A stretch of DNA of 64,000 nt from Lentisphaerales bacterium (lineage in GTDB: Bacteria; Verrucomicrobiota; Lentisphaeria; Lentisphaerales; Lentisphaeraceae), in assembly GCA_022446985.1 (NCBI GenBank), contig JAKVBD010000017.1, positions 1 to 64,000 on the forward strand, written 5' to 3'. Position 1 is the stretch's first letter. Every line of letters begins with the position of its first letter. This document shows positions 2,327 to 40,495 of this stretch, piece after piece. The notes beneath the pieces are model-generated. The model was not told where the DNA came from. It searched no databases and worked only from the letters and a program-made list of their open reading frames with translations. A program made the translations under genes and the position numbers.

Positions 2327-4429
2327 TTATTCGTAAATCACAGTTTTGCAGTGCTTTTTTATAGCTTGTAGCTCTTTACTTTTACTGCCTCTTTGGTTCT
2401 GTTTCAGGATAAGTTTATCAATCTTTATATTTTGTGGAACCTTTACCGAACGAATTATGGAGTTACTGAGGTTGAGTTCATTAATATTGCGTAATTTTCT
2501 GAGGTCGAGTGTATCTATTTTACTGTTGTTTAATTCCAGTTTTTCACAGTGACTTTGAATGAACGAAAAAGAATCGAGATTAACATTTTGTGCAATGATA
2601 GTTTTAGAGTTGATGGGGCGGAAGGTTTTGATCCGGGTATCTGATATATCTAAATACGAAAACTGATTGAGGGAAAAATGCAGGACTGTTTCTATACTTG
2701 AATTTCTTAGATTCAGTTTTTTTATGGAAAGGCCACTTACAAAATCCAGAAGCTCAACCTTTTTGTGATTTTCAAAATCCAGATTGAGCGAGTATTTATC
2801 AATTTCAACACGGAAGTTATCTAAAGAACCAAAGTTGTATCTCACGCAAAATTTAATAAACTCAGCAGTTTCTTGTAGGTTCCTAAAATATTGTTGTTGA
2901 AGTATCCGGCAAAGGTAGGCTCTTATTTGCACGTAAGGCATTCTTACATAAAGCTGTTGATAGTCGTTCATTGTCAGAGAGCGCTCTTTGACAATTTGAT
3001 TAAAGTCTCGCGCAACGTTCAGAAAATTCTGATTGTATTTATAATCGCCATAGCCTAAATCTACGGTTTTCTCAAAACACTCTACAGCTTTGTCAAAATC
3101 CAGACGCGATATTTTTAAGCGACCCAGTTCGTACCAGAATTCATAATTGTCAATTTCCAGTTGTGTGAGGTTTTCCAAGGAACGTTCAGCTTGTTCAAAA
3201 TCTTGATTCAGTTGTTCATCGCGCTGGACCTTAACAAGATATTCAGACGCTTTTATGACTATTTCGTAGCGCTTTTTCTCAGATTCTTTTAGCTCAGTTA
3301 AAACAGCTTCAACTTCATTTTTACCTTTGATTGCAAGGCGTTCGTTTTCTTTAAGTTGATTGATGAACATGAATACTGAAATGATGACGACTGCCAAAGC
3401 AGTTATAGCCGTGAGGCAAAGAGCCGTTTGACGTTTGTAGAAGAGTTTTGCCAGAGTCAGAAATGAAGCTTCTTGTGCACTGGTTGCGAAACCATTTTGG
3501 TAATCGGTAATTTCTTTGATTAATTCACCTACACTCTGGTATCTGGCAGACATTTCTAATGACATGGCTTTAGTTACCACGGCTTTTAAGGCAGGTGGAA
3601 TATTTGAAGTATTATCAGTTTCAAACTGGGGTAATTCACCAAGCAATACATTTTGCAGCTGCTTTTTACTTTCATTGCCTATCGTTGGTCTTTTTAAGGT
3701 CAAAATGGAGTAGAGTAGAGCACCTAGAGCATAGATGTCAGTTACCGGTGAAAATGAATCTGTTTCACTGCGAATTTGTTCAGGGGCCATATAGCCAGGA
3801 GTACCTGTAATTAACCCGTCGTCCCAAATATTTTCTTCATTCAGGTCCCAGGCGAGTCCCCAGTCGATCAGAATCACTTCGCCATAGTCGTTGATCTGAA
3901 TATTTTCCGGTTTTATATCGAGGTGCAAAATGCCCTGAGCATGAGCATAGGCTACGGCATTACAGGTTTTTAAAAAGATGTCCAGAAGGACGCTTAAGGG
4001 AAATTTTTGAATAGAAGCAGAATCATCTTTATGCAGCTTATTTAGGATGGAGCCAAGGTTTTCGCCTGCCAGCATTTTCATAGTGAAGTAGGGGAGATTC
4101 TCAGAGTCCAGACCTATATCGTACACCGGTACGATATTTGGATGATCGAGTTTTGCAGTAATTAAAGCTTCGCGAATAAAATGGTACTTACTGCGTTTAT
4201 CGGCAGAATCGTCTTTAAGAAAGGCCTGTGCGATTGTTCTTTGGGCATACTTTTGCTCAACAGAAAAGATCTTTTTGGCGCCGCCTTCATCGTGGAATTT
4301 TGCTTGGCCATTGTGCTTTTCTTGGAGATTTTTTAGCAGTGTTTCAAACTGCTGCTCAAAGTAGGCTTCCTCATCGATTATCTCTTGGCCATAATCCTTG
4401 AGGAAATCAAAACTATTGGAGTTCGACAT
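2327..4429 (-). CDS. Membrane Ser/Thr protein kinase with WNK-like lysine placement
   Basis: A 700-residue protein. The kinase domain spans about residues 40-310: catalytic loop HLDIKPEN at 169-176, DWG at 189-191 in place of DFG, and APE at 215-217. The usual beta-3 lysine is absent (the position is Ala69 in RTIAQAFL). A lysine, Lys52, sits at the third-glycine position of the glycine loop (EGGAKKIF), exactly 17 residues earlier, as in WNK kinases. One transmembrane helix lies near 335-357, then a coiled-coil stretch, a TPR-like stretch near 410-460 and a C-terminal leucine-rich, LRR-like ladder (about 560-690) that is probably extracytoplasmic. The first 17 bases overlap the end of the sigma-factor gene, so the two are co-translated. 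The kinase may control that sigma factor; this is inferred from context. Confidence 0.85.
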   Translation of the reverse strand: MSNSNSFDFLKDYGQEIIDEEAYFEQQFETLLKNLQEKHNGQAKFHDEGGAKKIFSVEQKYAQRTIAQAFLKDDSADKRSKYHFIREALITAKLDHPNIVPVYDIGLDSENLPYFTMKMLAGENLGSILNKLHKDDSASIQKFPLSVLLDIFLKTCNAVAYAHAQGILHLDIKPENIQINDYGEVILIDWGLAWDLNEENIWDDGLITGTPGYMAPEQIRSETDSFSPVTDIYALGALLYSILTLKRPTIGNESKKQLQNVLLGELPQFETDNTSNIPPALKAVVTKAMSLEMSARYQSVGELIKEITDYQNGFATSAQEASFLTLAKLFYKRQTALCLTAITALAVVIISVFMFINQLKENERLAIKGKNEVEAVLTELKESEKKRYEIVIKASEYLVKVQRDEQLNQDFEQAERSLENLTQLEIDNYEFWYELGRLKISRLDFDKAVECFEKTVDLGYGDYKYNQNFLNVARDFNQIVKERSLTMNDYQQLYVRMPYVQIRAYLCRILQQQYFRNLQETAEFIKFCVRYNFGSLDNFRVEIDKYSLNLDFENHKKVELLDFVSGLSIKKLNLRNSSIETVLHFSLNQFSYLDISDTRIKTFRPINSKTIIAQNVNLDSFSFIQSHCEKLELNNSKIDTLDLRKLRNINELNLSNSIIRSVKVPQNIKIDKLILKQNQRGSKSKELQAIKKHCKTVIYE

Positions 4430-5024
4430 GCAAGCGCCGTATTTCTTGTTTGAGCTTGTTTTTAACTCTGCCTTTATAGACGTAGACGATCGCTTCAGTG
4501 ATGTCCAACTGCTTGGCTATTTCACTGGCTGAAACCCCTTGCGAAGCGAGTATAAAACACTGCTTAGTAACATCCTCAAACTGACCCTCTATTTGTTCCC
4601 AGGCTTTTTCGGAAATATAAGCAATCCATTCTTCCTCAGCAAGACGATCAATATCTGAATTTTTAGAGCCATCTAAGTAAGGTTTTAGTTGTTCCAGATT
4701 TTTATCTGTCAGTTTTCCTTCGCGGCGTTTTTCTTTTGTCATAAAATTGATGATTTCATTTTTAATGACGCGGGTCAACCAAGAGCGAAAAGTACCTTTT
4801 TCAGGATCAATTTTTGTTTCTGGGAGCTTCTCCCAAAGTTTGAGCAGAATATTCTGGCTAAAGTCTTCAGCAAAGTCATGGCTGATGTTCATACGGCGAA
4901 TAACTTTGTAGATGTAGGGTTTGTAGTGAAGCGTGAAATCCTCCCAGGAATTAGAATCGTGTTTATCTCTTAACCTTTCGAGAAGAGTATAACGTGTTTT
5001 CCAGGGGTCGACGTTTTTAGACAT
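4413..5024 (-). CDS. RNA polymerase sigma factor, ECF type, partner of the kinase
   Basis: About 203 residues from the ATG at 5024; the frame could start at a GTG at 5036. Sigma region 2 is seen in the segment with AEDFSQNILLKLWEKLP and FRSWLTRVIKNEI, and region 4 as a helix-turn-helix around SASEIAKQLDITEAIVYVYK. The opening NVDPWKTRYTLLERLRDK is typical of the sigma factors that PVC bacteria pair with Ser/Thr kinases. The kinase gene starts inside the last codons. No anti-sigma gene is adjacent, so the kinase is the likely regulatory partner. Confidence 0.88.
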   Translation of the reverse strand: MSKNVDPWKTRYTLLERLRDKHDSNSWEDFTLHYKPYIYKVIRRMNISHDFAEDFSQNILLKLWEKLPETKIDPEKGTFRSWLTRVIKNEIINFMTKEKRREGKLTDKNLEQLKPYLDGSKNSDIDRLAEEEWIAYISEKAWEQIEGQFEDVTKQCFILASQGVSASEIAKQLDITEAIVYVYKGRVKNKLKQEIRRLHVELQ

Positions 5025-5409
5025 TCCATACTTCACAATTAATTCACTTACGGTTTCATTATAATCCAGACTTCAGAGAAAGTCGAATATATGAAACGTC
5101 AGCTTCATTCTTTTAACTACATTTAAATATATTTACAGAGAAGAATTCTAGTATTGGCTATTTTTGTTAAGTTCTGGTCATTGCCGAAACAGTCAAAAGT
5201 ATTCAATTTTCAATTTCTGGAAATAGATGCGTAGTGTCGGGAATTATCCACAAAAGTGTGGATTGTAATCATCTCACTCAAGTAGTTTTTTAATTTTAAA
5301 TAGCTTTGTTTATCAGGTTGTACCAAAAAATATTTTGTGTTTACGGCCTCTTATCGTTGTTTGAAAAATTTAACATTTCGTGGTTTTTATGGCTCAAGTT
5401 ATTCAAGAC
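5025..5409. other. Divergent intergenic region with one perfect hairpin
   Basis: This is an AT-rich gap between the sigma-factor gene and the secreted-protein gene. The only structure I see is ATCCACA-AAAG-TGTGGAT at 5246-5263, a 7-bp perfect stem. Its left arm includes TTATCCACA (5244-5252), which equals a consensus DnaA box. A single box without dnaA, dnaN or an AT-rich unwinding element does not make an origin. Promoters for both flanking genes presumably lie here, but no strong -35/-10 pair stands out. Confidence 0.5.
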
Positions 5410-10737: not shown

Positions 10738-13700
10738 TTATTTAACGATCAGTACACCTTTCATGATGATCCAGTGGCCAGGGAAAGTACAGATGTAAGG
10801 GTATCTGCCAGGCTCTTTAGGAGCTTGCATGCGTAAGGCAAAACTTGAGTTGGGTTTGACCAGTGGAGTACTGAAAAGAACTTCCGGAACTTTTGGAACG
10901 AAGTGCTTTTTGTAACCATCCATACTTCTGGCCATTTCATTAGCTGCTGCACCGACTTTTTGCTCTGCACCCGGTTTAACAATGACCAGATTGTGCGCCG
11001 TTGCAGATGTATTCAATAAGCTGATTTTTAGAGGCTGACCAGCTTTGACGGTAATTTCATTGACTGTGAAAGTCATTTGTTCTGTACAGTCAATTTCTAC
11101 ATTTTTTAGCTTTGGATCAGCATCAAACTGTGCTTGTGTCGAGTTGCGGGCTCTGAGGTTTTGTTTGAGATTCGATTCTTTGATAGTTGTGTGAATAAAT
11201 TCTGCTAAATCAGCATCTGTTTCTGCTGACCAGTGGCGGCCAAGAGCTTCAGAACCCAGAGCAGTAATAGTCGCATAGCTTAGGTGAGCATCTAAAGGTT
11301 TCTTAATGATGTTGCGAATAGCAGTCAAAGAATCTTTTGTACCGACATAGCTGGTTGCCACTGCCGTTTCCATTCTGACCAGGCCATTTTCGTCATTGCT
11401 GGCTTTCAGAAGGAGTTCGTTGGCATTTTCGAAATGCGGGAACCAGTAGCGGAATTGGCGAATCGCCGCTGCACGGGCATAGTGAACTTCACAGTTAAGA
11501 AGTTCTACCAGCAGAGGCTTATTGACTTTGTCAATAGCTCTGGAAAGCCACATGACTTCAGTTTGGTGGTGACGGTAACGCGGATCATTTTTATCTAAAC
11601 CGGCTAGCCATTTTTGCATTGCAGCTTCGACTTTATCGGCATCGCGCTCCATGATCTCACTTTTCGCCCAGTAACGTACGCGGTACTCTTTTCTTTTAAG
11701 TAACTCAAGAAGGTTTTCTAGTGACTCACCGGCAATTTTAGGTGCGTCTTGCAGTTTTTTGCCTTTAGTTGTGACACGCCAGATACGGCCAGCAGTACGG
11801 TCACGACGTTCATCACGTAAAGAGTACTGAGCATGACCTTTAACCGGGTTGTACCAGTCACAGATGTATAAAGCGCCACGAGGGCCAAAACGAATGTCGA
11901 CTGGAATGAAACTCAGGTTCTTGGCGAACAGAAGGTTTGTTTCAAGCTTCTCTTTATAGTGAGCTGTTTTTTCTTCCCACTTGTGAATCTCAATTCTGTT
12001 AGTTGGTTTGTAGCGAACCTTGATGACGCCTCCCTGTAGTTCTTCAGGGAAAGTATCGAAGTCAACAACTTCCTGGCCGCAAGTACCTGAGTAGGCATCG
12101 ATGCCTGCAGGTTTCGGGTGCTGCTGAGGGTATGGAGGGTTGGTTGCGTGGAAGCTACTGGCAAAGTTCGGGTGACTGGCGATGTGGAAACCCCAATCAT
12201 CAAATGTCGCTCCCCATGGATTGGTATTATGGTAGTTACCAAAGCTGGTCAACTTGTGAGTTGAAGGGTGGTACTGGAACCAGGCGCTGTTTTTAGCTCT
12301 TACAGGTCCATAAGCAGTTTCAACTTGTGAGTTGTGGAAAACAGATTCACGGAAAAGCAGGTCGCCATCTGGAGTTCTGACAAAGTCGTGAAGTGAGTGG
12401 TGTGAGTCCTCTGTACCGAATCCACTGAAAATAACGCGGCGGAAATCAGCTTTGCCATCGCCATCTGTATCTTTAATGAAAAGCAGGTTTGGCTGATCAG
12501 AAACGTAGACACCGCCATCGCCGAATTCAAAGGCCAGTGGTATGTGCAGGTCATCGGCAAAAGTTGTGCATTTATCAGCTTTGCCATCGCCATCTGTATC
12601 TTCCAGGATGATGAGCTTATCGCTGTGTTCCTGGCCAGGGTAAATGTGTGGATAAGTTGTTGAAGTACTCACCCAAAGACGGCCTTTGTTGTCCCACTTC
12701 ATATGGATAGGGCAGGCAAGCTCCGGGAACTCTTCTTCAGATGCAAAAAGGTTGACTTCAAAGCGTGGATCTATATCGAAGCTCTTATACTCATTTTCAG
12801 GACTCATGAATTTATTTGCACCGCGACTTTGGTCGGCCTCTGGCATGTGCGGAACATTTGAGTCATCAATTTTAGAGTTTTTACCCTGACTGAGATTCCA
12901 CATATGCTGATCGCGATTGGCAGACATCATGTCAAAGCTTTGCATCGCCGGCAGGAAGTCCAGGTAACCATATCTTGAGCTGCGGCCACCTGTATAGTAG
13001 AAAGTATTTAAAGGGCGGTAACGACGGAAGAACTGACGGTTTTTATTTAGGGCAGCTAAGCGAACCTCTTCACTGATCTTTGGTGCTGGAGTTTTAAAGG
13101 TCTGTTCAAAAAGGCTTTTAGCAAAAACTTTGTAGCCATCTTCAAGTAAGTGTACACCATTCGATGTCAGGTCGCCTTCGGCAGCCATAGCTTTTAAAGT
13201 GTCATCGTAAACATTTACGAAACCTACTTGCTGTTGTTGAGCAATTTCAGCCATAGCGTCGGCATACATTTTGATATTTTTATTATTTAAATCAGCCGCC
13301 TTAACTCCAGAAACATTCTCGTTGGCAATGGGTGAAAGTAAAACAATTTTTGGAGAAGTCTTAGCATTAAAGGCAGTCGATTTGAGCTCTGTTAAATAAG
13401 CTTTCAAATCTTCTTTAAATTTATCTAAACCTTCAGTTCCCTTGAACGATTCATTGAAACCAAAAGCTGCAAATATGACGTCAGCTTTAACAAAGGCGAG
13501 GTGCTGTTCAAGATCGGCAAAATTACCAGGTCGCGGTTGAATAGTGATTTCATCAGCGGCCCAGGAAAGGTTGCGAATACTCAATTCTAAATCTTTGAAT
13601 TGGCTGTGTAGCATGGCTTCAAAGTAGGCGTAATCCCCAGCGCGCTCAAGTAGAGTATTGCCGATGTAAGCGATGCGGTCGCCTTTATTTAATTTTAAAG

Positions 13701-13887
13701 GAAGAGTAGTTGCCAGTGGCGCAGTTTTAGGTGCTTTGGGAGCTGATTTTTCGTAGAGGGCAAACTCATTAAGCTTACCATCATTTTTTGGCGTCTGAGA
13801 GTTTCTATTCTTTTTAGGTGCAGCCGTTGCAGAGACCAGACATCCAGCCAGAGCTGCGGCACCAATATACCTTAATGCTTTGTTCAT
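10738..13887 (-). CDS. Multidomain SGNH hydrolase / sorbosone-dehydrogenase propeller / HEAT / blue-copper protein
   Basis: 1049 residues with a signal peptide and four modules. (1) About 60-285: an SGNH/GDSL-hydrolase-like domain (GDRIAYIGNTLLERAG, then FAAFGFNESFKG, ending at SNGVHLLEDGYK; GNT stands where GDS is usual). (2) About 370-690: PVC-type membrane-bound dehydrogenase/sorbosone-dehydrogenase propeller with repeated DTDGDGKAD calcium-type loops and RFGPRGALYICDWYNP. (3) About 720-870: HEAT-like helices. (4) About 935-1049: a cupredoxin with azurin-spaced type 1 copper ligands His965, Cys1033, His1038 and Met1042 (CTFPGHWIIM). PVC relatives often end in a CXXCH cytochrome c domain; here copper seems to take that electron-acceptor place. 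Substrate is unknown. Confidence 0.88.
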   Translation of the reverse strand: MNKALRYIGAAALAGCLVSATAAPKKNRNSQTPKNDGKLNEFALYEKSAPKAPKTAPLATTLPLKLNKGDRIAYIGNTLLERAGDYAYFEAMLHSQFKDLELSIRNLSWAADEITIQPRPGNFADLEQHLAFVKADVIFAAFGFNESFKGTEGLDKFKEDLKAYLTELKSTAFNAKTSPKIVLLSPIANENVSGVKAADLNNKNIKMYADAMAEIAQQQQVGFVNVYDDTLKAMAAEGDLTSNGVHLLEDGYKVFAKSLFEQTFKTPAPKISEEVRLAALNKNRQFFRRYRPLNTFYYTGGRSSRYGYLDFLPAMQSFDMMSANRDQHMWNLSQGKNSKIDDSNVPHMPEADQSRGANKFMSPENEYKSFDIDPRFEVNLFASEEEFPELACPIHMKWDNKGRLWVSTSTTYPHIYPGQEHSDKLIILEDTDGDGKADKCTTFADDLHIPLAFEFGDGGVYVSDQPNLLFIKDTDGDGKADFRRVIFSGFGTEDSHHSLHDFVRTPDGDLLFRESVFHNSQVETAYGPVRAKNSAWFQYHPSTHKLTSFGNYHNTNPWGATFDDWGFHIASHPNFASSFHATNPPYPQQHPKPAGIDAYSGTCGQEVVDFDTFPEELQGGVIKVRYKPTNRIEIHKWEEKTAHYKEKLETNLLFAKNLSFIPVDIRFGPRGALYICDWYNPVKGHAQYSLRDERRDRTAGRIWRVTTKGKKLQDAPKIAGESLENLLELLKRKEYRVRYWAKSEIMERDADKVEAAMQKWLAGLDKNDPRYRHHQTEVMWLSRAIDKVNKPLLVELLNCEVHYARAAAIRQFRYWFPHFENANELLLKASNDENGLVRMETAVATSYVGTKDSLTAIRNIIKKPLDAHLSYATITALGSEALGRHWSAETDADLAEFIHTTIKESNLKQNLRARNSTQAQFDADPKLKNVEIDCTEQMTFTVNEITVKAGQPLKISLLNTSATAHNLVIVKPGAEQKVGAAANEMARSMDGYKKHFVPKVPEVLFSTPLVKPNSSFALRMQAPKEPGRYPYICTFPGHWIIMKGVLIVK

Positions 13888-15011: not shown

Positions 15012-16361
15012 GTGGATACAGTGAATAAAGACCTTGGTAAATTTATGAATGGTCTCGTTAAAAGAAATCCCGGGGAAGTAGAGTTTCATCAGGCCGTTGA
15101 AGAGGTCGCCTCTACCTTGATGCCTTTCATAAATGAAAATACCAAATATAAAGATGCACAGATTCTAGAGCGTCTAACAGAGCCGGATCGCATAATTATC
15201 TTCCGTGTTTGTTGGGAAGATGACAATGGCCAGGTCAGAACCAATCGCGGTTACCGGGTTCAGTTTAACAATTCTATTGGTCCTTATAAAGGCGGTCTGC
15301 GCTTTCACCCAACAGTTAGTTTAAGTGTTTTAAAGTTTCTTGGTTTTGAGCAGATTTTCAAAAATAGTCTGACAACTCTTCCTCTTGGTGGAGCTAAAGG
15401 CGGAGCCAACTTCAATCCGAAAGGCAAGTCAGATGCAGAAGTGATGCGCTTCTGTCAGTCTTTTATGACTGAACTAACTCGTCATATTGGTGCGGATATC
15501 GATGTCCCTGCTGGAGATATTGGTGTCGGTGCCCGTGAGATCGGTTACCTTTATGGACAGTTTAAACGTCTCAATAATCGTCTAACGGGTGCTATTACCG
15601 GTAAAGGTTATGATTATGGTGGCAGTCTTATGAGACCCGAAGCTACTGGTTACGGGTGTGTTTACATGGCTAGAGAAGCTTTGGATAAAGCAGGTGATGA
15701 TTTAGCCGGTAAGAAATGTTTGGTTTCAGGTTCAGGTAATGTTGCGCAACATGCAACTGAAAAGCTACTTGAGTTGGGTGCGACGGTTCTGACTTTATCA
15801 GATTCAGGTGGCAGTATATATGATCCAGATGGTATTGATGAGGAAAAGTTGGCTTTTGTCAAAGAACTAAAAAATGTTCGACGTGAGCGTATTTCTGAAT
15901 ACTGTGAGAAATACCCTAAAGCTGAATTCCTTGAGGGGAAAAGGCCTTGGGGTGTTGCTGCCGACTTGGCTTTCCCTTGTGCAACTCAAAATGAAATTGG
16001 CATTGTCGATGCCAAAGAGCTGGTAATTAACAATTGTAGACTTGTTTGTGAAGGGGCTAATATGCCGACAGATAATGAGAGTATCGGTTACTTTCAGGCA
16101 AATGGCGTGAGCTTTGTTCCTGGTAAGGCTGCCAATGCTGGTGGTGTTGCCGTTTCAGGACTGGAGATGACTCAGAACTCTATGCGCATTCAGTGGAGTG
16201 CAGAAGAAGTAGATGCCAAGTTGTTGAGTATCATGCAAAATATTCACAGTAAGTGCGTTGATTACGGTACTGAAAATGGCAAGGTCAATTACGTCAAAGG
16301 AGCTAATATTTCGGCTTTTAAAAAGGTGGCGGATACTATCCTTGCGTATGGGATAATCTAG
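15012..16361 (+). CDS. gdhA: NADP-type glutamate dehydrogenase
   Basis: 449 residues, the usual length of hexameric bacterial GDH. It makes glutamate from 2-oxoglutarate and ammonia. Visible landmarks are the substrate loop GPYKGGLRFHP at 90-100, the catalytic lysine Lys129 in PLGGAKGG, the DVPAGDIGVGAREIGY segment, the YGGSLMRPEATGYG block and the Rossmann motif SGSGNVAQ. The start is a GTG with GGGAG upstream. The 3' end overlaps the convergent RAYT gene by four bases, so there is no room for a conventional terminator between them. Confidence 0.96.
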   Translation: MDTVNKDLGKFMNGLVKRNPGEVEFHQAVEEVASTLMPFINENTKYKDAQILERLTEPDRIIIFRVCWEDDNGQVRTNRGYRVQFNNSIGPYKGGLRFHPTVSLSVLKFLGFEQIFKNSLTTLPLGGAKGGANFNPKGKSDAEVMRFCQSFMTELTRHIGADIDVPAGDIGVGAREIGYLYGQFKRLNNRLTGAITGKGYDYGGSLMRPEATGYGCVYMAREALDKAGDDLAGKKCLVSGSGNVAQHATEKLLELGATVLTLSDSGGSIYDPDGIDEEKLAFVKELKNVRRERISEYCEKYPKAEFLEGKRPWGVAADLAFPCATQNEIGIVDAKELVINNCRLVCEGANMPTDNESIGYFQANGVSFVPGKAANAGGVAVSGLEMTQNSMRIQWSAEEVDAKLLSIMQNIHSKCVDYGTENGKVNYVKGANISAFKKVADTILAYGII

Positions 16362-17266
16362 GGTTTAAAATAACAATCCGACCATGGCCAATCTTTTTTA
16401 GAATCAGTTAGTTTAGCTTTAACTGGATTATGATGAATATACTGGATCGTTTGATTGAAGTGATTTTGGTCACGGATAAAGCGATCCCAGTATTCTCTTT
16501 GCCAAATTGAAAACTTCTTTTTTAAGTTGGGAGTGCCATTCTTCGCTGTGGCAGACTTTATCGAGCTGGGAGCGCCGCTCTCCGATGCTGCCGACTCTAT
16601 CGAGCTGGGAGCGCCGCTCTCCGATGCTGCCGACTCTATCGAGCTGGGAGCGCCGCTCTCCGATGCTGCATGTCGTATTGAATCGTCTTTCTCTGTAGTG
16701 AGAGTGCCGCTCTCCGATGCGGCACTTAAGTACGCTTCTAAAAAAACATCATTGTTGAGGACAAAATTTGTCGTAAACAATTTCCATGACCTTACAAGGT
16801 TGCCAATTTTTTGATTGGGGTAGACTTTGATTAGCAAGTGAACATGGTTTGGCATAACGGTGTAAGCAATTAGATCATACTTTTCTTGATCAAAATATTT
16901 CCAGGAAGAGATAACTTGTTCCGCAACTTCTGGAATTTTTAGAAGGCAGCTTCCATAGCTTTTGTCTAATATGTTCTCTATGAATAATCTGCGATGTCGT
17001 GCTTTTGCCGCATCGGAGAGCGGCGCTTCTGAGTAGTTTGACTTACTATTAGTGCCAATTCCTTTTGCCGCATCGGAGAGCGGCGCTCCTAAGGTAGTGT
17101 TTAGACCTTGTTCTGTATCGAATTGTGACACTTTTGCCATTAGGTAATTTGGGAGTGAGTCTGCTAGCCTATACGTAATGAATTGATATTTATGATCTGC
17201 CTCATAGTGAGGAATGTAACCACGAGAGTGCCAATTTTGAGAATTGTTGAATTCGTGACGCATCAC
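16358..17266 (-). CDS. REP-associated tyrosine transposase (RAYT) carrying REP sequence in frame
   Basis: 302 residues. The Y1/TnpA_REP core is clear: HSRGYIPHYEADHKYQFITYRL at the start, the HUH-type motif MPNHVHLLI near residues 138-146, and the C-terminal WQREYWDRFIRDQNHF and YIHHNPVKAKL blocks. Two insertions are unusual. Residues near 60-88 read GAPLSDAAK twice, and residues near 185-260 read AASESGAPSSIES in 13-residue repeats. Both are translations of the REP-like palindrome GAGCGCCGCTCTCCGATGC in opposite orientations. The reading frame stays open. RAYTs mobilise or spread REP elements, and the same palindrome occurs near 34.4 and 34.6 kb. Activity with about 100 added residues is uncertain. 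Confidence 0.9.
   Translation of the reverse strand: MMRHEFNNSQNWHSRGYIPHYEADHKYQFITYRLADSLPNYLMAKVSQFDTEQGLNTTLGAPLSDAAKGIGTNSKSNYSEAPLSDAAKARHRRLFIENILDKSYGSCLLKIPEVAEQVISSWKYFDQEKYDLIAYTVMPNHVHLLIKVYPNQKIGNLVRSWKLFTTNFVLNNDVFLEAYLSAASESGTLTTEKDDSIRHAASESGAPSSIESAASESGAPSSIESAASESGAPSSIKSATAKNGTPNLKKKFSIWQREYWDRFIRDQNHFNQTIQYIHHNPVKAKLTDSKKDWPWSDCYFKP
16524..16734. repeat. 39-bp tandem REP-derived repeats inside the RAYT gene
   Basis: Three near-perfect 39-bp units start at 16563, 16602 and 16641, each holding GAGCTGGGAGCGCCGCTCTC and a GATGCTGC end. A degenerate unit precedes them (from about 16524) and another follows (to about 16734, ending GATGCGGCA). Because 39 is a multiple of three the RAYT frame is kept. 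GAGC-GCC-GCTC is a self-complementary core. Confidence 0.9.
17003..17090. repeat. Two inverted-orientation REP copies in the 5' part of the RAYT gene
   Basis: TTTTGCCGCATCGGAGAGCG occurs at 17003 and again at 17063, each followed by GCGCT(T/C)CT. These are the reverse complement of the palindrome near 16.6 and 34.4 kb. The two copies are 60 bases apart and also keep the reading frame. Confidence 0.88.
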
Positions 17267-26810: not shown

Positions 26811-28823
26811 ATGAAAAAATTTACTTGTGTGCTTTGTATGCTGACTGCTATGGCAACTGCAGAGGAGCAAAAGGCTGTAGGGCCAAAAGCAAAAGACAAG
26901 ATTGTTATCTCTGCTACAAAGACTGACAACTCACTCGAAGAAGAGTCAATCGTAATTGGTGTAGTCACACGTGAACAAATGGATAAACATCAAGTTCGTG
27001 ATCTTGGCGAAGCAGTTAAAAGAATGCCAGGGGTTACAATTTATAATGGACCTAGATCACAATCCATGCGCCCGATTATTCGTGGCTTAAGCGATGCAAG
27101 AGTTTTAACTGTGATAGATGGTGTACGTCAAAATTTTGATTCCTCTTATCGCGGTAAAATGTATGTCGATTTTGATCTTCTAAAGCAAGTTGAAGTCGTC
27201 AGAGGCCCGGCGTCAGCTCTTTGGGGAAGTGGTGCCTTAGGAGGTGTTCTTTCTTTAGAAACAGTTGATCCATCAGATTTACTTGATGATGATAAAGAAT
27301 GGGGATTAAAGCTTTCTTCAGGTTTTGATTCTGTAAATGATGGTATTCGTTTCGGTTCAACAGTTTTTGGTAGAGCCGATCAGTTTGAATATTTATTCAA
27401 TGTTGGACAAAGAGACAGTAATGATGTGACTCTTGGTAGCGGAGACAGGCTTAAATATTCAGAGCAGGATAATTATAGTTCGCTCTCAAAATTAATTTGG
27501 CATGCTTCAAAAAATGATAAATTAACATTACAATACCAAACTCATTATGCTGATGAGCTGAAGCCACTTGATGAGCAAAGAAGTACAGAAGCCTTATCAG
27601 GTATAACTGATCAAGAGGCGAAAAGAGATCAAGTAAAATTTGGTTATGAACATGATGATGTAAATGATAATTTTGATTTTACTTTTAATGCATACTATAC
27701 AAGCCTTGAGCTTGATGACGAAAACCAAGATCCAGCAACTGCAGGTTGGACTAACTCAAATACTCAATATGATACATATGGGGTTGAATTAAGAAACTCA
27801 ACTATTTGGGCACAAAGTGACAATATAGTTCATACTTTTACTTATGGGATTGAGTTGTTTCGTGATGAGCAGGAAGCATCAAGAGATGGAGGCGAATACT
27901 TTGTATTCCCAGATGCAGAGCAGGACAGTCTTGGTATATATATTCAGGATGAGATCGCAATTGGTGAAAAGTTAGTAGTAATTCCAGGGATACGTTATGA
28001 TGAATTTGATTCAGAATCAGATGCTGGAGAGTCATTGAACGCTGATTCTGTTAATCCAAAATTAGGTATTATTTATCATCTAAATGATGATATAGACCTC
28101 TTTGCTAACTATTCTCATGGTATGCGTGGTCCCACTCTAAGAGAACTTTACATTCAGGGTGGTGGTTTTCCTGAGTTCTTGTCTAATCCGGATCTTGAAG
28201 AAGAAAAAAGCAAAAACTGGGATGTAGGTTTCCGTTTAGATAAGTCGAATGCTTTCACAAACAACGACAACTTAAAATTGCGCTACGCTTTCTTCCATAA
28301 TGAAATTGAAGATTACATTAATCTTGAATCTGATATTACATATCATCCAATATTCGGTTTTCCTACAGCTATCGACCTTCAGTATCAAAATGTATCAGAT
28401 GCGACAATTCATGGTCACGAGTTAGAAGCTGAGTGGAGCAATGAAAAACTTCTTCTATGGGCCAATTATACATATACTCACGGTGAGAATGACACGGATA
28501 ATGAACCATTAAGCGGTATCCCATCTCAGACTGTTAATTTTGGTGTTGATTATCAAGTTGTTAATGATATCTCTGTCGGTTATGCAGGGCAGTTTGTCGA
28601 TCATCAAGACCGACTAGGTTCTGTAGATATTAAAGGTACAGATAATTATAGCACACATGATGTCTATGTACGTTGGGCGCCAAGTAGTGATCTACTTAAC
28701 GGTCTTGCTCTAACTGTTGGTATTGATAATATTCTAGACGAAGAATATCAATCTCATATGGACGTTGTAGAAGGAGAGGGTCAAAATGTTAAAGCGTCTC
28801 TCAGTTATACTGTTCAATTCTAA
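26811..28823 (+). CDS. TonB-dependent receptor, heme/hemoglobin type
   Basis: 670 residues with a signal peptide (MKKFTCVLCMLTAMATA). The plug domain runs about 30-150 (VISATKTDNSLEE, MPGVTIYNGPRS, PIIRGLSDARVLTVIDGVR, VEVVRGPASALWGSGALGG). The barrel contains the heme-receptor landmarks in slightly changed form: MRGPTLRELY in the FRAP-box position and NPDLEEEKS for NPNL. The end ASLSYTVQF has the terminal aromatic needed for outer-membrane insertion. It heads the operon with hmuTUV, an exporter and hugZ, which supports heme as the substrate. Two operator-like dyads precede it. Confidence 0.93.
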   Translation: MKKFTCVLCMLTAMATAEEQKAVGPKAKDKIVISATKTDNSLEEESIVIGVVTREQMDKHQVRDLGEAVKRMPGVTIYNGPRSQSMRPIIRGLSDARVLTVIDGVRQNFDSSYRGKMYVDFDLLKQVEVVRGPASALWGSGALGGVLSLETVDPSDLLDDDKEWGLKLSSGFDSVNDGIRFGSTVFGRADQFEYLFNVGQRDSNDVTLGSGDRLKYSEQDNYSSLSKLIWHASKNDKLTLQYQTHYADELKPLDEQRSTEALSGITDQEAKRDQVKFGYEHDDVNDNFDFTFNAYYTSLELDDENQDPATAGWTNSNTQYDTYGVELRNSTIWAQSDNIVHTFTYGIELFRDEQEASRDGGEYFVFPDAEQDSLGIYIQDEIAIGEKLVVIPGIRYDEFDSESDAGESLNADSVNPKLGIIYHLNDDIDLFANYSHGMRGPTLRELYIQGGGFPEFLSNPDLEEEKSKNWDVGFRLDKSNAFTNNDNLKLRYAFFHNEIEDYINLESDITYHPIFGFPTAIDLQYQNVSDATIHGHELEAEWSNEKLLLWANYTYTHGENDTDNEPLSGIPSQTVNFGVDYQVVNDISVGYAGQFVDHQDRLGSVDIKGTDNYSTHDVYVRWAPSSDLLNGLALTVGIDNILDEEYQSHMDVVEGEGQNVKASLSYTVQF

Positions 28824-28851
28824 TTAAAACTCACATAAAAGTTTAATCGCC

Positions 28852-28879
28852 GGCGTCAAAGGCTAAGCCTTTTGACGCC
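28852..28879 (+). terminator. Long hairpin between the receptor and hmuT
   Basis: GGCGTCAAAGGC-TAA-GCCTTTTGACGCC forms a 12-bp stem with one bulged base, 44 bases before the hmuT ATG. It probably lowers transcription of the ABC genes relative to the receptor (partial terminator) or protects the receptor mRNA 3' end. Confidence 0.65.
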
Positions 28880-28922
28880 TTTCGAGGTAATAGAAAAACA
28901 AAAAATAATAAGGAAATTTAGA

Positions 28923-29786
28923 ATGCTCACCCCTAAATTTATCCTCTCCATACTGCTTATACTTTTAAGCTCTACAACATTTGCTGAATACAGACTCATC
29001 ACTCTTGGCAGCAATGCAACAGAAACAGTTTTTGCACTTGGTCTTGGTGACAAGGTGGTTGCCCGTGATTATGGCAGCACTTTTCCAAAAGCAGTTAATG
29101 ACCTGCCTTCTCTGGGGCAGGGTCACAAAATCAAAGCTGAAGAAATTCTAAAGCACAATCCAACACACATCGTTGTCTGGGATAAGCGCGCTTCTAACAC
29201 AGGTGTAATTGAAAAGCTTAAAAAGGCTTTTGTACAGATTGTTGAACTTGGTATTAAAGACTCAACTCAGCAGACAGAAGAAAATATCAAAGCAGTAGCT
29301 AAAGCCTTCGGTAAAGAGGCAGAAGGCGAAAAACTTATCGCTAAAGTTCAAAGCGACATTCAAAAAGTTTCTGAATATAACAAAACGAAAAAGAACAGTC
29401 CGAACGCCATTTTTATTTATGCCAGAGGCATCGGTACTTTATTTCTTGCCGGTCAAGGCAGCAGTGCCCAGACTTTACTTGAATTGGCTGGAGCTCAGCC
29501 GGCAGTCAAAGGTTTCCACGGTTTTAAGCCGGTAAATGCAGAGACTATCATCGAAGCAGACCCTGAAGTTGTGATGCTTTTTCACAGTGGTCTTGAAAGC
29601 CTTGGTGGTCAGGAGAAACTTGCAGAAGTACCTGGTCTGAAACTGACTAAAGCTCTTAAAAATGGCAAGATCGTTGCCATCGACGACAGAGCCCTGAATT
29701 TCGGTCCACGCATTGGTTTATTTGCTATGGAACTCGCTCAGAAACTACAAGGTGATTTGGAGCCGACAGCGAAAGTCAATGAGTGA
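28923..29786 (+). CDS. hmuT: Periplasmic heme-binding protein HmuT
   Basis: About 287 residues from the ATG at 28923 (AAGGA upstream). A signal peptide (ILSILLILLSSTTFA) is followed by a cluster-A substrate-binding fold: RLITLGSNATETVFALG, VVARDYGSTFP, LPSLGQGHKIKAEEILKHNP and FGPRIGLFAMELA. The Tyr in ARDYGSTFP stands where HmuT proteins carry a heme-ligating residue. It delivers heme to HmuU. The last eight bases overlap hmuU. Confidence 0.93.
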   Translation: MLTPKFILSILLILLSSTTFAEYRLITLGSNATETVFALGLGDKVVARDYGSTFPKAVNDLPSLGQGHKIKAEEILKHNPTHIVVWDKRASNTGVIEKLKKAFVQIVELGIKDSTQQTEENIKAVAKAFGKEAEGEKLIAKVQSDIQKVSEYNKTKKNSPNAIFIYARGIGTLFLAGQGSSAQTLLELAGAQPAVKGFHGFKPVNAETIIEADPEVVMLFHSGLESLGGQEKLAEVPGLKLTKALKNGKIVAIDDRALNFGPRIGLFAMELAQKLQGDLEPTAKVNE

Positions 29787-30885
29787 AGCCTGTTCAACTA
29801 CTGAATATGGTGATGCATTAAACTCTGTACAAACCCGTAAACGCAAGACTAAACTTATCCATCTTGGTCTGGCCGCAGCTTTAATCTGTTGCTTTGCATT
29901 TGCCCTGATTTTTGGTTCTTCTTCGACCGGTTTAAAAGAACTGATCGGCACCTTCATTGGTTACGTCGGTCTTGAAAGTCCCTGGGCTCTTCAGGACAAT
30001 CAGAGATTTATTATCACCGAATTGCGCCTGCCGCGTGCCCTTCTGTCAATTTTTATTGGCGGCTGTTTGGCAATTGGTGGTGTGGCCATGCAGGGATTAT
30101 TTCGAAATCCGCTAGCTGCTCCAGGAATACTTGGTGTTAACAGTGGAGCCGCTCTTGGAGCTGCCTTAATGATCGTTCTTGGAAATACCTTGTTGCCAGA
30201 GTCATTAAGCGAATATGCTTTTTACTCAGTTCCGGCCGGTGCCTTTATTTCGGCTTTAGCCATAACCGGCTTAATAGTTAAAGTGGGTACGGTTGGCGGT
30301 CGAACAAACATTTTTATTCTTCTACTGACAGGTGTTGCCCTGCAGGCGATTATTGGTGCAGTCATGGGTCTTTTGACTTACATAAGTGACGACCAGCAAT
30401 TGCGTTCTTTGACATTTTGGACCATGGGAGACCTTGGTGTAGCAGGCTGGAAAGAATTGGCATTTATCATTCCTATTCTCAGCTTTTGCTGCTTTATGAT
30501 CATGCGTAAAGCCGGAGCGTTAAATCTGTTCCTGCTAGGTGAAGCAGAAGCACACCACCTGGGGATTGATGTTCAGAAGCTTAAGAAGAGTTTGATCATT
30601 TGGACAGCATTGGCTATTTCTTTAGCCGTTTCTTTTACCGGAAGTATTGGTTTTATCGGCCTGGCTGCACCTCACCTGGTACGTTTGATGACCGGCCCGA
30701 ATCACAAGACTCTGTTTCCAGGAGCCTGCCTCATGGGGGCTCTTATTCTTTGTCTTTCAGATATACTGTCGCGTTCAGTAGCCACAGCGGAAATCCCGGT
30801 GGGAATCATCACATCCTTCATAGGTGCCCCGGTCTTCTTATGGTTGTTGATCATGCAGCGCAAAGGAGGCGGTTCTTTTGCTTAA
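29779..30885 (+). CDS. hmuU: Heme ABC transporter permease HmuU (FecCD family)
   Basis: About 368 residues from the ATG at 29779 inside the end of hmuT. FecCD/BtuC-type permease with about ten helices: ELRLPRALLSIFIGGCLAIGG, FRNPLAAPGILGVNSGAALGA, GSIGFIGLAAPHLVRLM and the EIPVGIITSFIGAPVFLWLL end. The Gly-rich coupling loop lies at the usual place before APHLVR. A 30-residue cytoplasmic N-terminal extension precedes the first helix. It overlaps hmuV by eight bases. Confidence 0.94.
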   Translation: MSEACSTTEYGDALNSVQTRKRKTKLIHLGLAAALICCFAFALIFGSSSTGLKELIGTFIGYVGLESPWALQDNQRFIITELRLPRALLSIFIGGCLAIGGVAMQGLFRNPLAAPGILGVNSGAALGAALMIVLGNTLLPESLSEYAFYSVPAGAFISALAITGLIVKVGTVGGRTNIFILLLTGVALQAIIGAVMGLLTYISDDQQLRSLTFWTMGDLGVAGWKELAFIIPILSFCCFMIMRKAGALNLFLLGEAEAHHLGIDVQKLKKSLIIWTALAISLAVSFTGSIGFIGLAAPHLVRLMTGPNHKTLFPGACLMGALILCLSDILSRSVATAEIPVGIITSFIGAPVFLWLLIMQRKGGGSFA

Positions 30886-31663
30886 GACTGAAAATATTAA
30901 ATTTGCCCGTGGTACTCGTGAGATTCTCAAGGGGATTGACCTGGAAGTGGCCAATTGTGAAGTCACGGCTTTACTTGGCCCAAATGGTGCCGGTAAAAGT
31001 ACACTCATTAAAATTATGTCTGGTGAACTGACTCCGGATTCAGGCAGTGTACCAGTCAATGACAAAAAATTGGCGGACTGGGACCCGATGAATCTGGCAA
31101 AGCATCGTGCTGTCATGCCGCAGAAGAGTGCTTTGAGTTTTGACTTTAAAGTCATCGATGTTGTCCTTATGGGAAGAACGCCTTTTAATCAGGGGTGGGA
31201 TAGTAAAGAAGATCTTGAACTGGCGATTAACTGTCTTAAAGAAGTTGAGTGTTTACACCTTAAAGACCGCAGTTTTCCAACGCTTTCCGGTGGAGACCAA
31301 CAGCGCGTCAGTTTTGCTCGTGTTTTGGCCCAGCTTCAAAGTGAAGACAAGCCAAAGAACCTTTTGCTGGATGAACCGGTTTCAAGTCTTGATCCTGAAC
31401 ACCAGTTAAAGACTCTTGAGCTGGCTCGTCGGCGTGCCGATGCAGGTGTGGCAGTTTTTGTCATTCTTCACGATCTCAATATGGCGGCAGCGTTCGCAGA
31501 TAAAGTAGCTTTTTTACACAATGGTCACTTAAAGGCGTTTAATACTCCTGAGAAAGTATTGACTCAGCCAATTATCCGAGAAGTATTTAACATAGACGTA
31601 GATGTGCAGACTCATGCACAAAACGGCAAATTGTTAATTACCAATGCGAGGGTAGCGGTTTGA
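30878..31663 (+). CDS. hmuV: Heme ABC transporter ATPase HmuV
   Basis: 261 residues starting at a TTG (30878). The TTG is backed by a strong AAAGGAGG eight bases upstream and no better start is near. Walker A GPNGAGKST, Q-loop VMPQKSAL, signature LSGGDQQRVS, Walker B NLLLDEPVSSLD and switch His in ILHDLN are all present. It powers HmuU. The stop overlaps the start of the next ABC gene. Confidence 0.94.
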   Translation: MLKTENIKFARGTREILKGIDLEVANCEVTALLGPNGAGKSTLIKIMSGELTPDSGSVPVNDKKLADWDPMNLAKHRAVMPQKSALSFDFKVIDVVLMGRTPFNQGWDSKEDLELAINCLKEVECLHLKDRSFPTLSGGDQQRVSFARVLAQLQSEDKPKNLLLDEPVSSLDPEHQLKTLELARRRADAGVAVFVILHDLNMAAAFADKVAFLHNGHLKAFNTPEKVLTQPIIREVFNIDVDVQTHAQNGKLLITNARVAV

Positions 31664-33483
31664 GCTCCATGACTAAAATTTTTGACTTTACCTATTTAAA
31701 AAAGCAGTTATTACAACACAAGTCGACGCTTGTTAAGGCTCACATAGTAGCAGTTTTCGCGGCGATTACTGTTGTCTTGCAACCGCTGTTTATTCCACTC
31801 TTAATCGACGACCTCTTGCTTGAGGGAAATGGTCGGTTAACCAGTAAGCTTGATTACATCTTGCCGGCCGGTTGGAGCGAGCCGATGCACTATATCGGCA
31901 TCACCCTAGCTATTACTTTATTTTTGAGGTTTTCAGGTTTTGCATTGAATATCCTGCAGACAAAGGTTTTTACCGGGATTTCACAGGAGATTTGCTATAA
32001 TATTCGCCTCAGAGTTTTGGGCCGCTTGCAGAATATCGCGGTAAAATATTTTGAGCAGAATGGTACCGGTAAAACGGCTTCTTTGTTTACCACAGATATC
32101 GATACCGTAGAGTCCTTTATTTCAAAGAGCATCAGTAAGCTGATTCTTTCAGTCTTGCAACTGATTGCTACAGCTGCCATTTTGTTGTGGATCAACGTTA
32201 AGATTGGCCTGTTTATTTTATTGTTGTACCCGGCAGTCATCTTTCTGACAGTTAAGCTTGGTAAATCAGTTAAGAAACTAAAAGGTTCAGAGAACAAGGC
32301 GATCGCTGGTTTTCAGGAGAAGATTACTGACTTCCTGGAAGCTGTTCATGAACTTCGTGTCAGTCGACGTGATAAACATTTTTTGACTCATATAAAAAGT
32401 TCAGCCGGTACTATGCGCGATGCCATTATTTCATCGCAATGGAAGACGGATGCAGCCTCGCGTGGCAGCTTTGTTCTTTTCCTGGCCGGATTCGATTTGT
32501 TCAGGGTTGCGGCTGTTTATGTTGCTCTCACCAGCCCGGATCTGAGCGTTGGTGAAATGATTGCCATCTTCAGTTACCTGTGGGTACTTATGGGGCCGGT
32601 GCAAGAGTTAATAGGTATTCAATATTCCTGGTTTGGCGCATCTGCCGCTATGGACCGAGTAAATACATTTATTAACCAAGATGAGGAAATGAAAGGGAAT
32701 CTTTCAGGTGAGTTTTCTGTAGGTGAAAAAACTGGCGTTGAAATAGCTTTTGATAAAGTTTCTTTTAGTTACACAGAAGGCGTTTCTGTTTTGGATGAGG
32801 TAAGCCTTAAGATTCCAGCAGGTCAGCATGTTGCCATAGTCGGTGCTACCGGTGGGGGTAAGAGTACTCTGGTGCAGGTTCTTACTGGACTTTATAAACC
32901 TTTAAATGGAACAGTTTCACTAAATAATCAAGATATCTATGCCATTGGGCTGGATACCGTCAGGGAAATGACGGGAGTAGTTTTGCAGGCTCCAGGCCTC
33001 TTTCAATCGACAGTCCGCGAGAATATTCTCATGGGTGAGCATGCTGACGATGAAGAGGTCTGGAGATCCTTGCAAGTTGCTTGTCTCGATGAATTTATTC
33101 GCGAACAAGCGGATGGTCTGGATACACAGGTCGGTAGCAGAGGCCTTAAACTTTCCGGTGGCCAAAGGCAGCGTCTTGCCATTGCTCGAATGGTTTTAAG
33201 AAAACCTCAGATAGTTATTCTCGATGAAGCGACATCGGCACTTGATCCGCAGACGGAAAATGAAGTACACAAACGCTTAAAAGCTTTCCTCGAAAACAGG
33301 ACAACAATTACTGTTGCGCATAGACTCAGTGCAGTAAAACAGGCGGAAAAAATATACGTTTTTGAGAATGGCAAAATCATTCAGGATGGTAGTCATGATG
33401 ATCTTGTTTCTCAGGACGGACTTTACTCAAAACTTTACAATGACAAGGAGAAAACACATGAGCGAAGCGAAATTCACGCTTAA
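31660..33483 (+). CDS. ABC exporter (fused membrane and ATPase domains) in the heme operon
   Basis: 607 residues (TTG at 31660; an ATG at 31669 is possible). Residues 1-330 form a six-helix type IV ABC membrane domain. The ATPase domain has VGATGGGKSTL, LSGGQRQRLAIARM and IVILDEATSALDPQ. It is a half-transporter likely to work as a homodimer. Placement between hmuV and hugZ with overlaps at both ends shows it is part of the heme operon. Candidate cargoes are heme, porphyrin breakdown products or a siderophore; the sequence does not decide. Mycobacterial IrtAB shows that such folds can also import. Confidence 0.9.
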   Translation: MSSMTKIFDFTYLKKQLLQHKSTLVKAHIVAVFAAITVVLQPLFIPLLIDDLLLEGNGRLTSKLDYILPAGWSEPMHYIGITLAITLFLRFSGFALNILQTKVFTGISQEICYNIRLRVLGRLQNIAVKYFEQNGTGKTASLFTTDIDTVESFISKSISKLILSVLQLIATAAILLWINVKIGLFILLLYPAVIFLTVKLGKSVKKLKGSENKAIAGFQEKITDFLEAVHELRVSRRDKHFLTHIKSSAGTMRDAIISSQWKTDAASRGSFVLFLAGFDLFRVAAVYVALTSPDLSVGEMIAIFSYLWVLMGPVQELIGIQYSWFGASAAMDRVNTFINQDEEMKGNLSGEFSVGEKTGVEIAFDKVSFSYTEGVSVLDEVSLKIPAGQHVAIVGATGGGKSTLVQVLTGLYKPLNGTVSLNNQDIYAIGLDTVREMTGVVLQAPGLFQSTVRENILMGEHADDEEVWRSLQVACLDEFIREQADGLDTQVGSRGLKLSGGQRQRLAIARMVLRKPQIVILDEATSALDPQTENEVHKRLKAFLENRTTITVAHRLSAVKQAEKIYVFENGKIIQDGSHDDLVSQDGLYSKLYNDKEKTHERSEIHA

Positions 33484-34180
33484 AGCTAAGAATGCAAGAG
33501 CCCTGCTAAAAGCAGAAAAAGATGGCGTTCTTTCAACACATTCACTGGATGTCCCGGGTTACCCGTTCGGTTCAGTTACACCTTATGCCCTGGATAAGCT
33601 TGGTCGCCCGATCATTCTTATTTCTAACCTGGCACAGCACACACAAAATATTAATGAAAACGGCAAAGTTTCTCTGACTATCGTTGCTTCTACATTAGCT
33701 CGCGATGTTCAGGCAAATGCTCGTCTAACTTTCCTTGGCGATGCCAGAAAAATAACTGAAGACGAAGCAGATGCTAAAGAGCGTTACTTGAGAAAATTCC
33801 CTCACGCTAAGCGCTACTTCGAAGCTCATGATTTTTTCTTCTATGTAGTCGAGCTTAAGAGAGCCCGTTACATCGAAGGTTTCGGTAAGATCTGGTGGGT
33901 AGAGCCGGAAGAAATGGAGCTTGAAAATGTTTTCGATGCTGCGTCTGAAGCTCGTGTTGTTGATCACATGAATGATGATCACCGTGAGTCATTGGTGAAG
34001 TACTGTAGAGAGTACAACTTTAAGAACCCGACTGAAGAGTACAGCATGACTGGTATCGACACAGAAGGTATCGACATAGTGGTTGGAACTCAGAATGTTC
34101 GCATTCGCTTTGAGAAGCCACTCGATGACGCTTCTCAGGCTCGTGAAGTTCTAGTTGCTTTGGCGAGGAAGGAAGACTAA
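33458..34180 (+). CDS. hugZ: HugZ/HutZ-like heme utilisation protein
   Basis: About 240 residues from the ATG at 33458, which has AAGGAG upstream; it overlaps the exporter end by 26 bases. The N-terminal split-barrel flavin/heme-binding fold (ARALLKAEKDGVLSTHSL, PYALDKLGRPIILIS, ARLTFLGDARK, FPHAKRYFEAHDFFFYVVEL) is followed by a DUF2470-like domain (VVDHMNDDHRESLVKYC). Heme-degrading HutZ/HugZ proteins have exactly this two-part build. It probably frees iron from imported heme in the cytoplasm and closes the operon. Confidence 0.92.
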   Translation: MSEAKFTLKAKNARALLKAEKDGVLSTHSLDVPGYPFGSVTPYALDKLGRPIILISNLAQHTQNINENGKVSLTIVASTLARDVQANARLTFLGDARKITEDEADAKERYLRKFPHAKRYFEAHDFFFYVVELKRARYIEGFGKIWWVEPEEMELENVFDAASEARVVDHMNDDHRESLVKYCREYNFKNPTEEYSMTGIDTEGIDIVVGTQNVRIRFEKPLDDASQAREVLVALARKED

Positions 34181-34228
34181 AAGGTTTGAGGGTGTCTTCG
34201 GCTTAGAGGTTTGAGGCGCTTCGCTTAA

Positions 34229-34693
34229 AGGCCCTGGGAACGCCGCTTTTTAATTGGCATCCCCCATGATTTTGCCGAGCTGGTGCTCGGAGTTCCATAA
34301 GGAGCACCGGCGCCCTCGCCGGTAGTTAAGCTTAGGACTCATAAACAATCTCATGCAGAGGCGCGGAGGCGCAGGGTAACTCTGGGGGCGCCGGTAATAA
34401 ACTGGGAGCGCCGCTCTCCGATGCGGCAATGTTGGGACTTTGCCGAGCTGGAGCTCAGCGATCCATAAGGAGCACCGGCACCTTTGCCGGTAGTTAAGAC
34501 TAGGACTTTTTAAAGAATCTCACGCAGAGGCGCGGAGACGCAGAGTAACTCTGGGTTCGTCGGTAATTAAGCTGGGAGCGCCGCTCTCCGATGCGGCAAT
34601 GTTGGGACTTTGCCGAGCTGGAGCTCAGAGTTCCATAAGGAGCACCTGCACCTTTGCCGGTAATATTCTCGGAATAGCCGCTTTTTAAGCGGC
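34229..34693. repeat. Composite palindromic repeat array, about 170-bp units
   Basis: The TTTGCCGAGCTGG segment occurs at 34271, 34439 and 34609, and GGGAGCGCCGCTCTCCGATG at 34403 and 34573, so the period is 168-170 bases with about 2.5 copies. Each unit joins several small palindromes: CCGAG/CTCGG, CCGGCxCCTxxGCCGG, the REP GAGCGCCGCTC, and a CGCAGAGGCGCGGAG block. A related hairpin, GCCGCTT-TTT-AAGCGGC, closes it at 34677-34693. The REP is identical to the one in the RAYT gene. No credible gene lies inside. It separates hugZ from tonB. Confidence 0.9.
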
Positions 34694-34723
34694 AATCGAC
34701 ATTTTAAAGTAAGGAATAAATAA

Positions 34724-35521: not shown

Positions 35522-35637
35522 TACTGCAGTTTCAAAGAGAATTTGTCGCGCCAAAATACTACATTGATATTGAATCTCAAGTAATATTCATTAAAGTAAG
35601 CGAAATAATTTATAACCTTACTAAAGATGAAATAATT

Positions 35638-36153: not shown

Positions 36154-36175
36154 TTTATTGCATTAGCATTACATG

Positions 36176-36207
36176 AAGGCCTTCCAATTCTGGGAGGCCT
36201 TTTTTCT
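36176..36207 (+). terminator. Intrinsic terminator of the flavodoxin gene
   Basis: AAGGCCTTCC-AATTCT-GGGAGGCCTT, a 10-bp stem with one wobble, followed by TTTTTCTT. Confidence 0.9.
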
Positions 36208-36254
36208 TCAAACACAGCATATAGTTCTTTCACAGCCTTTCGTAAAAGGTATAT

Positions 36255-36314: not shown

Positions 36315-36381
36315 TTTTATACTTCATTTTATCCTCAGTATTTTCATAATTATATCAATTGTCATTGTAGATCTTGTTTTA

Positions 36382-40287: not shown

Positions 40288-40297
40288 AGTAAACCTC

Positions 40298-40483: not shown

Positions 40484-40495
40484 TTCCGCATATTC

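Follow-up and report, generated by a model that had tools for sequence, protein, structure and literature searches.

A probably active family of bacterial membrane Ser/Thr kinases with the catalytic lysine relocated to the glycine loop, encoded beside ECF sigma factors

The window analysed here, a stretch of 64,000 nucleotides of contig JAKVBD010000017.1 from a Lentisphaerales bacterium (GenBank assembly GCA_022446985.1), carries near its beginning the gene for a 700-residue membrane Ser/Thr kinase. A preliminary description of this DNA had placed a kinase at 2327-4429, and this is borne out with a correction of strand: the gene (2327..4429) lies on the minus strand, with its ATG at 4429 and its stop at 2327, and the plus strand of the same interval is rich in stop codons. 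Its start overlaps by 17 bases the end of the gene of an ECF sigma factor (4413..5036, minus strand, as are all the features that follow) in which the acidic residues of region sigma-2.2 (DAED-type) are kept. The kinase domain (aligned residues 26-323; 3461..4354) is matched by the Pfam Pkinase model over residues 49-298 with E=1e-35, and the solved structures closest to it by sequence are those of PknB and PknA. AlphaFold2, run with 55 paralogues, gives this domain a canonical fold (pLDDT 92, pTM 0.91), for which Foldseek returns CaMKII, DAPK and PknA at the top. A hydropathy peak marks a single transmembrane helix at residues ~338-356 (3362..3418), and in 30 of the 30 full-length paralogues checked such a peak follows the kinase domain at the same place. 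For the remainder of the window protein AlphaFold2 models (pLDDT 83) a long helix followed by TPR-like helical repeats at residues ~411-533 (2831..3199), which are also indicated by a weak Pfam TPR match and by Foldseek matches of the C-terminal region to consensus TPR proteins, and by a strand-rich, LRR-like solenoid at residues ~540-655 (2465..2812), for which the paralogue at locus L037 shows a weak LRR match. As modelled, each kinase of the family would carry such a TPR and solenoid domain.

The kinase domain aligns with WNK1, whose sequence was verified residue by residue against PDB 4pwn, with no gaps, pairing K233 with K52, C250 with A69, E268 with E87, D349 with D171 and D368 with D189. 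Ala69 (codon at 4223..4225) thus stands in the column of WNK1 C250 and of the β3 lysine of canonical sister kinases, and Lys52 (4274..4276) takes the place of the third glycine of the glycine loop, both as the preliminary description had proposed. The same description had read the catalytic loop HLDIKPEN (residues 169-176; 3902..3925) and the metal-binding D189-W190-G191 (3857..3865) as intact, and the residues are as claimed, with Trp190 at the place of Leu369 of the WNK1 chloride pocket. Among the features of Hanks-type kinases, the α-C glutamate (Glu87; 4169..4171), the Asp, Lys and Asn of the catalytic loop, the metal Asp, APE, the α-F Asp and the α-I Arg are all present in the window kinase, and by the sequence criteria for pseudokinases the β3 lysine alone is missing, with Ala69 in its stead. 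A further point of the preliminary description, that the 17 residues separating the two positions equal the spacing in WNK1, is true as a measurement but says nothing for WNK likeness, canonical kinases of the same genome with Gly52 and Lys69 being spaced identically, and we have discarded it. It might be supposed that Ala69 sits in a misplaced column, through an alignment slip or a local accident, and that the genuine ATP lysine is Lys72 or Lys53, both of which are near neighbours of the two positions in this protein. This is hardly credible: the family columns match those of the canonical sisters without gaps, the alignment places no other lysine at the β3 position, and lysine is poorly conserved at positions 72 (just 21/55) and 53 (14/55), which rules out both residues, against 55/55 at position 52. 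Judged from the sequence, then, Ala69 is compensated by Lys52 in the window kinase.

The host genome (6.3 Mb in 271 contigs) yielded 134 Pkinase matches, and the kinase loci were fetched and all of their domains aligned. Fifty-nine paralogues (loci L031-L110 together with the window) combine Lys52 with the absence of lysine at position 69, which is Ala in 57, Thr in one and Val in one. In nearly all the remaining kinases position 52 is Gly, Ala or Ser and position 69 is Lys or Arg; six of the genome's kinases share the DWG motif and keep the normal lysine arrangement. No kinase with lysine at both positions occurs in the loci examined, and a DNA search of 129 genomes of the class with a double-lysine pattern gave no match, hence no double-lysine intermediate. 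Lys52, Glu87, His169, Asp171, Lys173, Asn176 and Asp231 are invariant in the 59 paralogues and Asp189 is kept in 58. The same residue pattern recurs in 55 more kinases from other genomes, and over both sets the catalytic Asp, Lys and Asn, the metal Asp, the α-C Glu, the APE Glu and the α-F Asp are all but invariant. The catalytic loop reads HLD in 51/59 paralogues and HRD in 4/59, while HLD is found also in one of the canonical sisters, whose lysine is in the usual place, so that this feature, which the preliminary description had read as a hint that activation-loop phosphorylation is not needed, is not strictly tied to the lysine swap. One paralogue that the tree places among the nearest to the window kinase (L046:1271-3331) has VWG in place of DWG, with loss of the metal Asp, and is probably the family's one true pseudokinase.

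By standard criteria, kinases without a β3 lysine are pseudokinases (PMC12599244), and the 59 proteins could accordingly be pictured as ATP-blind or inactive, serving either as scaffolds or, by binding a sigma factor that they do not phosphorylate, as membrane anti-sigma factors, a role which synteny with ECF sigma genes would fit too. We consider this unlikely. Mean pairwise identity within the relocated-lysine family is only ~45%, a divergence at which idle sites are expected to drift, yet the other catalytic residues are kept in 59/59 with the one exception at D189, and the lysine has been gained exactly where WNK1 and POMK are rescued. Because the catalytic residues are invariant at this level of identity, the pattern speaks for an active site that still works with its lysine relocated, and not for decay, and the earlier remark that the protein need not be a pseudokinase is probably right. 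The window kinase is probably catalytically active with its lysine moved to the WNK place, and what it belongs to looks like a large, convergent and unstudied signalling family, not a single odd or dead enzyme.

A tree of 84 kinases unites the relocated-lysine kinases in one clade (100/93) nested among the canonical DWG kinases, and the clade persists (98/94) once the two trait columns are removed. The trait changes three times on this tree, counting WNK1 and a group from Chloroflexota. Members of the latter, with the motif GEGGKKRVYLAHD...VAFALIK, show the identical swap of Lys at the third glycine and Ala at the β3 position, but they have HRD and DFG motifs and form a clade separate from the window family. 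The two loci concerned (L263:1462-2253 and L265:1468-2292, with the swap in GEGGKKRV...VAFALIK) are unrelated in the tree to the window's clade, and a joint clade is rejected (AU p=1.3e-6), which rules out a common origin. A joint clade with WNK1 was not formally rejected (AU p=0.16), WNK1 being a partial sequence on a very long branch and the sole eukaryotic kinase in the set. The conserved residues, the nesting of the clade and the separate Chloroflexota swap together argue that evolution arrived convergently at an active site whose lysine is relocated.

The distribution of the family was surveyed with the DNA pattern GGxKx[IV]xxxxDxxxxRx[IV]AxA at zero mismatch, which finds 42/59 members in the home genome and so gives counts that are lower bounds. 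Matches occur in at least 94/388 genomes of the phylum, mostly of the window's class, and a reversed-pattern control had zero matches in the phylum search. Genomes of the window's taxonomic family mostly hold 52 to 73 strong matches, among which a few canonical relatives may be counted. For at least one single match (G076, locus L221) no kinase with the swap was recovered, so that this match is probably false and single pattern matches outside the class are provisional. In Planctomycetota the pattern was found in at least 1/294 genomes, with 10 copies in one assembly (G445, L253-L262); the ten relocated-lysine kinases of this assembly nest within the window's clade, and either horizontal transfer or a mis-binned assembly would account for them. 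The zero-mismatch pattern matched 0/189 genomes of Myxococcota and 0/119 of Acidobacteriota, and in Chloroflexota at least 2/151, which constitute the second swap group.

Like the window family, WNK1-4 have no β3 lysine and carry a lysine at the third glycine while keeping the α-C Glu, the catalytic Asp and the metal Asp. They differ in having Cys and not Ala at the vacated place, HRD and not HLD, and DLG and not DWG; the window family moreover consists of bacterial membrane kinases adjoining ECF sigma genes, with a place in the tree among bacterial DWG kinases. The preliminary description had raised the question of chloride sensing, for which we find no support. The chloride pocket of WNK1 is formed by F283, L299, L369 and L371, and the L369F variant is insensitive to chloride (PMC7606576); in inactive WNK1 the Arg of HRD holds the α-C Glu268 (PMC1821047). 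At the four pocket places the window kinase has V102, F115, W190 and L192, a set that departs from the WNK1 pocket, and the HRD Arg which pairs with the α-C Glu is Leu in 51/59 paralogues. Trp190 occurs in 59/59 paralogues and also in the canonical DWG sisters, and therefore did not come with the lysine swap. Since the pocket residues differ, with Trp190 at the L369 place, and since the HRD Arg is replaced by Leu, a WNK-like chloride switch is unlikely, and WNK-type chloride sensing was rejected as a likely function on the pocket residues.

The broader proposition that these are bacterial members of the WNK family, sensing chloride through the vacated β3 pocket, draws on the identical place of the lysine in a gap-free alignment and on the AU test, which does not formally reject the joint WNK1 clade, WNK1 being a long branch. 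Against it stand the nesting of the clade in bacterial DWG kinases, the presence of V102, F115 and above all W190 for L369, a place at which Phe already suffices to abolish chloride sensing by WNK1 (PMC7606576), the Leu in the place of the Arg that acts in inactive WNK1 (PMC1821047), the absence of any WNK from the best 50 fold matches and the best 60 sequence matches, and an identity to WNK1 of 25% over 134 residues. It appears very improbable, and from its position in the tree the window family is probably not related to the WNKs by descent.

Other kinases and kinase-like proteins provide further points of comparison. Both WNK1 and POMK are active kinases with a β2 lysine (PMC10211241). POMK (SGK196) resembles the window family in that the lysine of its kinase fold has migrated to β2 with retention of activity (PMC10211241), but its substrate is a sugar and further canonical motifs are missing from it, whereas the window family keeps every other catalytic motif. 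For the bacterial kinase-like family CAK-chloro, a shift of positive charge from β3 to the third-glycine place was likewise proposed (Kannan 2007, PMC1821047); that family has Met72 and Arg55, with Phe at the place of the α-C Glu, and is a relative of small-molecule kinases and not of the Hanks type (PMC1821047). The bacterial pseudokinase families ActPs1-3, GLW, CP1, DYD and DLHK of a 42-family atlas also lack the β3 lysine, but according to the review that treats them they have lost further motifs or replaced the Lys by Arg or a bulky residue, and there none of these seven pseudokinase-rich families is credited with a lysine at the third glycine (PMC12599244). No report of a relocated lysine in bacterial Hanks-type kinases was found in the open literature, a search outside which the 42-family atlas itself (PMC12233097) lay. 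What was known before is therefore the two animal cases, WNK and POMK, together with the CAK-chloro proposal outside Hanks-type kinases (PMC1821047); the alignments and the tree add at least two bacterial origins of the swap among true Ser/Thr kinases.

The overlap with a sigma factor gene is not peculiar to the window. An ECF sigma gene of the same family lies within the fetched few kb at 50/59 loci, directly upstream and on the same strand in ~30, and at 9/59 kinases the fetched stretch holds none; 0/6 of the canonical DWG kinases have such a sigma gene nearby. Sigma-kinase modules are massively expanded in this bacterium, whose 6.3 Mb encode 59 relocated-lysine kinases and ~48 related ECF sigma factors. 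Distances among the sigma factors correlate with those among the kinases (Mantel r=0.48, p=2e-4), and the nearest neighbours of sigma factor and kinase agree in 21/48 pairs against 1 expected. Synteny and co-divergence lead us to infer a sensor kinase of the membrane that governs its cognate sigma factor. There is precedent in PknT/EcfP and PknS/EcfK, where the kinase phosphorylates the ECF sigma factor encoded with it (PMC8103513, PMC8999054, PMC13147305), and these ECF43 pairs, like groups ECF59, 61, 62, 217 and 283, likewise place a membrane Ser/Thr kinase beside an ECF sigma factor with no obvious anti-sigma factor. The window pair shares with the ECF43 type the adjoining kinase gene, here with the 17-base overlap, but its sigma-2.2 motif is not the uncharged one with a phosphorylatable Thr: window-family sigma factors keep the acidic motif, unlike ECF43, with Asp or Glu at position 58 in 48/48, at 57 in 42/48 and at 55 in 43/48. 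Because this motif is kept, the ECF43 mechanism, the one that is well proven, does not fit, and activation of the EcfP type, in which phosphate restores the missing charge, is ruled out. Other kinase-linked ECF groups also keep an acidic motif, and by the account in PMC8999054 the agreement of ECF59, 61, 62, 217 and 283 with the window pair extends to this kept motif and the kinase neighbour only. A relocated lysine is not described for the kinases of ECF43 or of the other ECF groups in the accessible parts of these accounts.

The intact acidic motif is also what favours a different arrangement, in which an active relocated-lysine kinase has a partner other than the sigma factor, and the latter merely transcribes the kinase and neighbouring genes such as sulfatases. 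Among the matches listed, sulfatase genes lie within 3 kb of 17/59 relocated-lysine kinases against 2/46 other kinases (p=0.0016), a comparison in which the 46 kinases were hand-chosen and p is uncorrected for other neighbours looked at. The host genome holds at least 150 sulfatase genes, and on the window's contig there is no sulfatase among the matches listed. The sulfatase association is thus a lead, not a result. The strong co-divergence of sigma factor and kinase suggests direct contact, though linked inheritance could give part of it, and known operons of such type act from kinase to sigma factor (PMC8999054). We give this arrangement a minor though appreciable chance.

The explanation that we favour, and judge likely as a whole, is that of a competent kinase with a glycine-loop lysine, from a clade of single origin amplified to 59 copies, which serves as a membrane sensor switching its cognate ECF sigma factor. 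Lys52 would supply from the glycine loop the grip on the ATP phosphates normally provided from β3, with the small Ala69 filling the vacated place; by analogy with WNK1 and POMK (PMC10211241), it would form a pair with Glu87 and reach the phosphates, in the manner of WNK1 Lys233. The swap would have arisen once, in an ancestor within the bacterial DWG-kinase clade, separately from the Chloroflexota group and probably from WNK also, and the gene would then have been amplified to its 59 copies in the host genome. Each copy is predicted to be a single-pass protein, its orientation following from topology rules, with a cytoplasmic kinase and an extracytoplasmic TPR/solenoid sensor, and the kinase most likely activates or silences the ECF sigma factor encoded with it, either by phosphorylating it or by binding to it, as synteny and co-divergence suggest. 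Counting against this explanation are the 9/59 kinases with no sigma gene nearby, the paralogue without a metal Asp and the acidic motif kept in the sigma factors. A more speculative extension, which we think doubtful, is that the lysine did not move by neutral convergence and that the vacated β3 pocket is a built-in site for a ligand or ion, or reflects an unusual nucleotide or conformational need, that gates the kinase and was selected together with the sigma-switch role, at ~60 copies per genome; such a gating pocket, if real, would parallel in bacteria the ion sensing of WNKs, with another ligand.

The host genome also encodes canonical sisters for direct comparison, and together with the bacterial origins of the swap they bring within reach of experiment the questions of why the lysine moves and whether its relocation needs or creates a regulatory pocket. 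An automatic rule that takes absence of the β3 lysine to mean a pseudokinase would throw out a family that is probably the largest group of active kinases in these bacteria. With their amplified modules of sigma factor and kinase, some of them by sulfatase genes, these bacteria could plausibly sort environmental signals, perhaps those of sulfated polysaccharides.

Elsewhere in the window, the intervals 26811-43469 and 57109-63782 encode three TonB-dependent receptors, an ABC exporter, an IucA/IucC siderophore synthetase and a class-III aminotransferase, and probably represent a region for siderophore production and uptake. An IS200-like (Y1) transposase gene adjoins a glutamate-type dehydrogenase gene at 16358-17266, and a 1049-residue protein encoded at 10738-13887 combines a GDSL-type lipase domain, DUF7133, HEAT repeats and a C-terminal cupredoxin domain.
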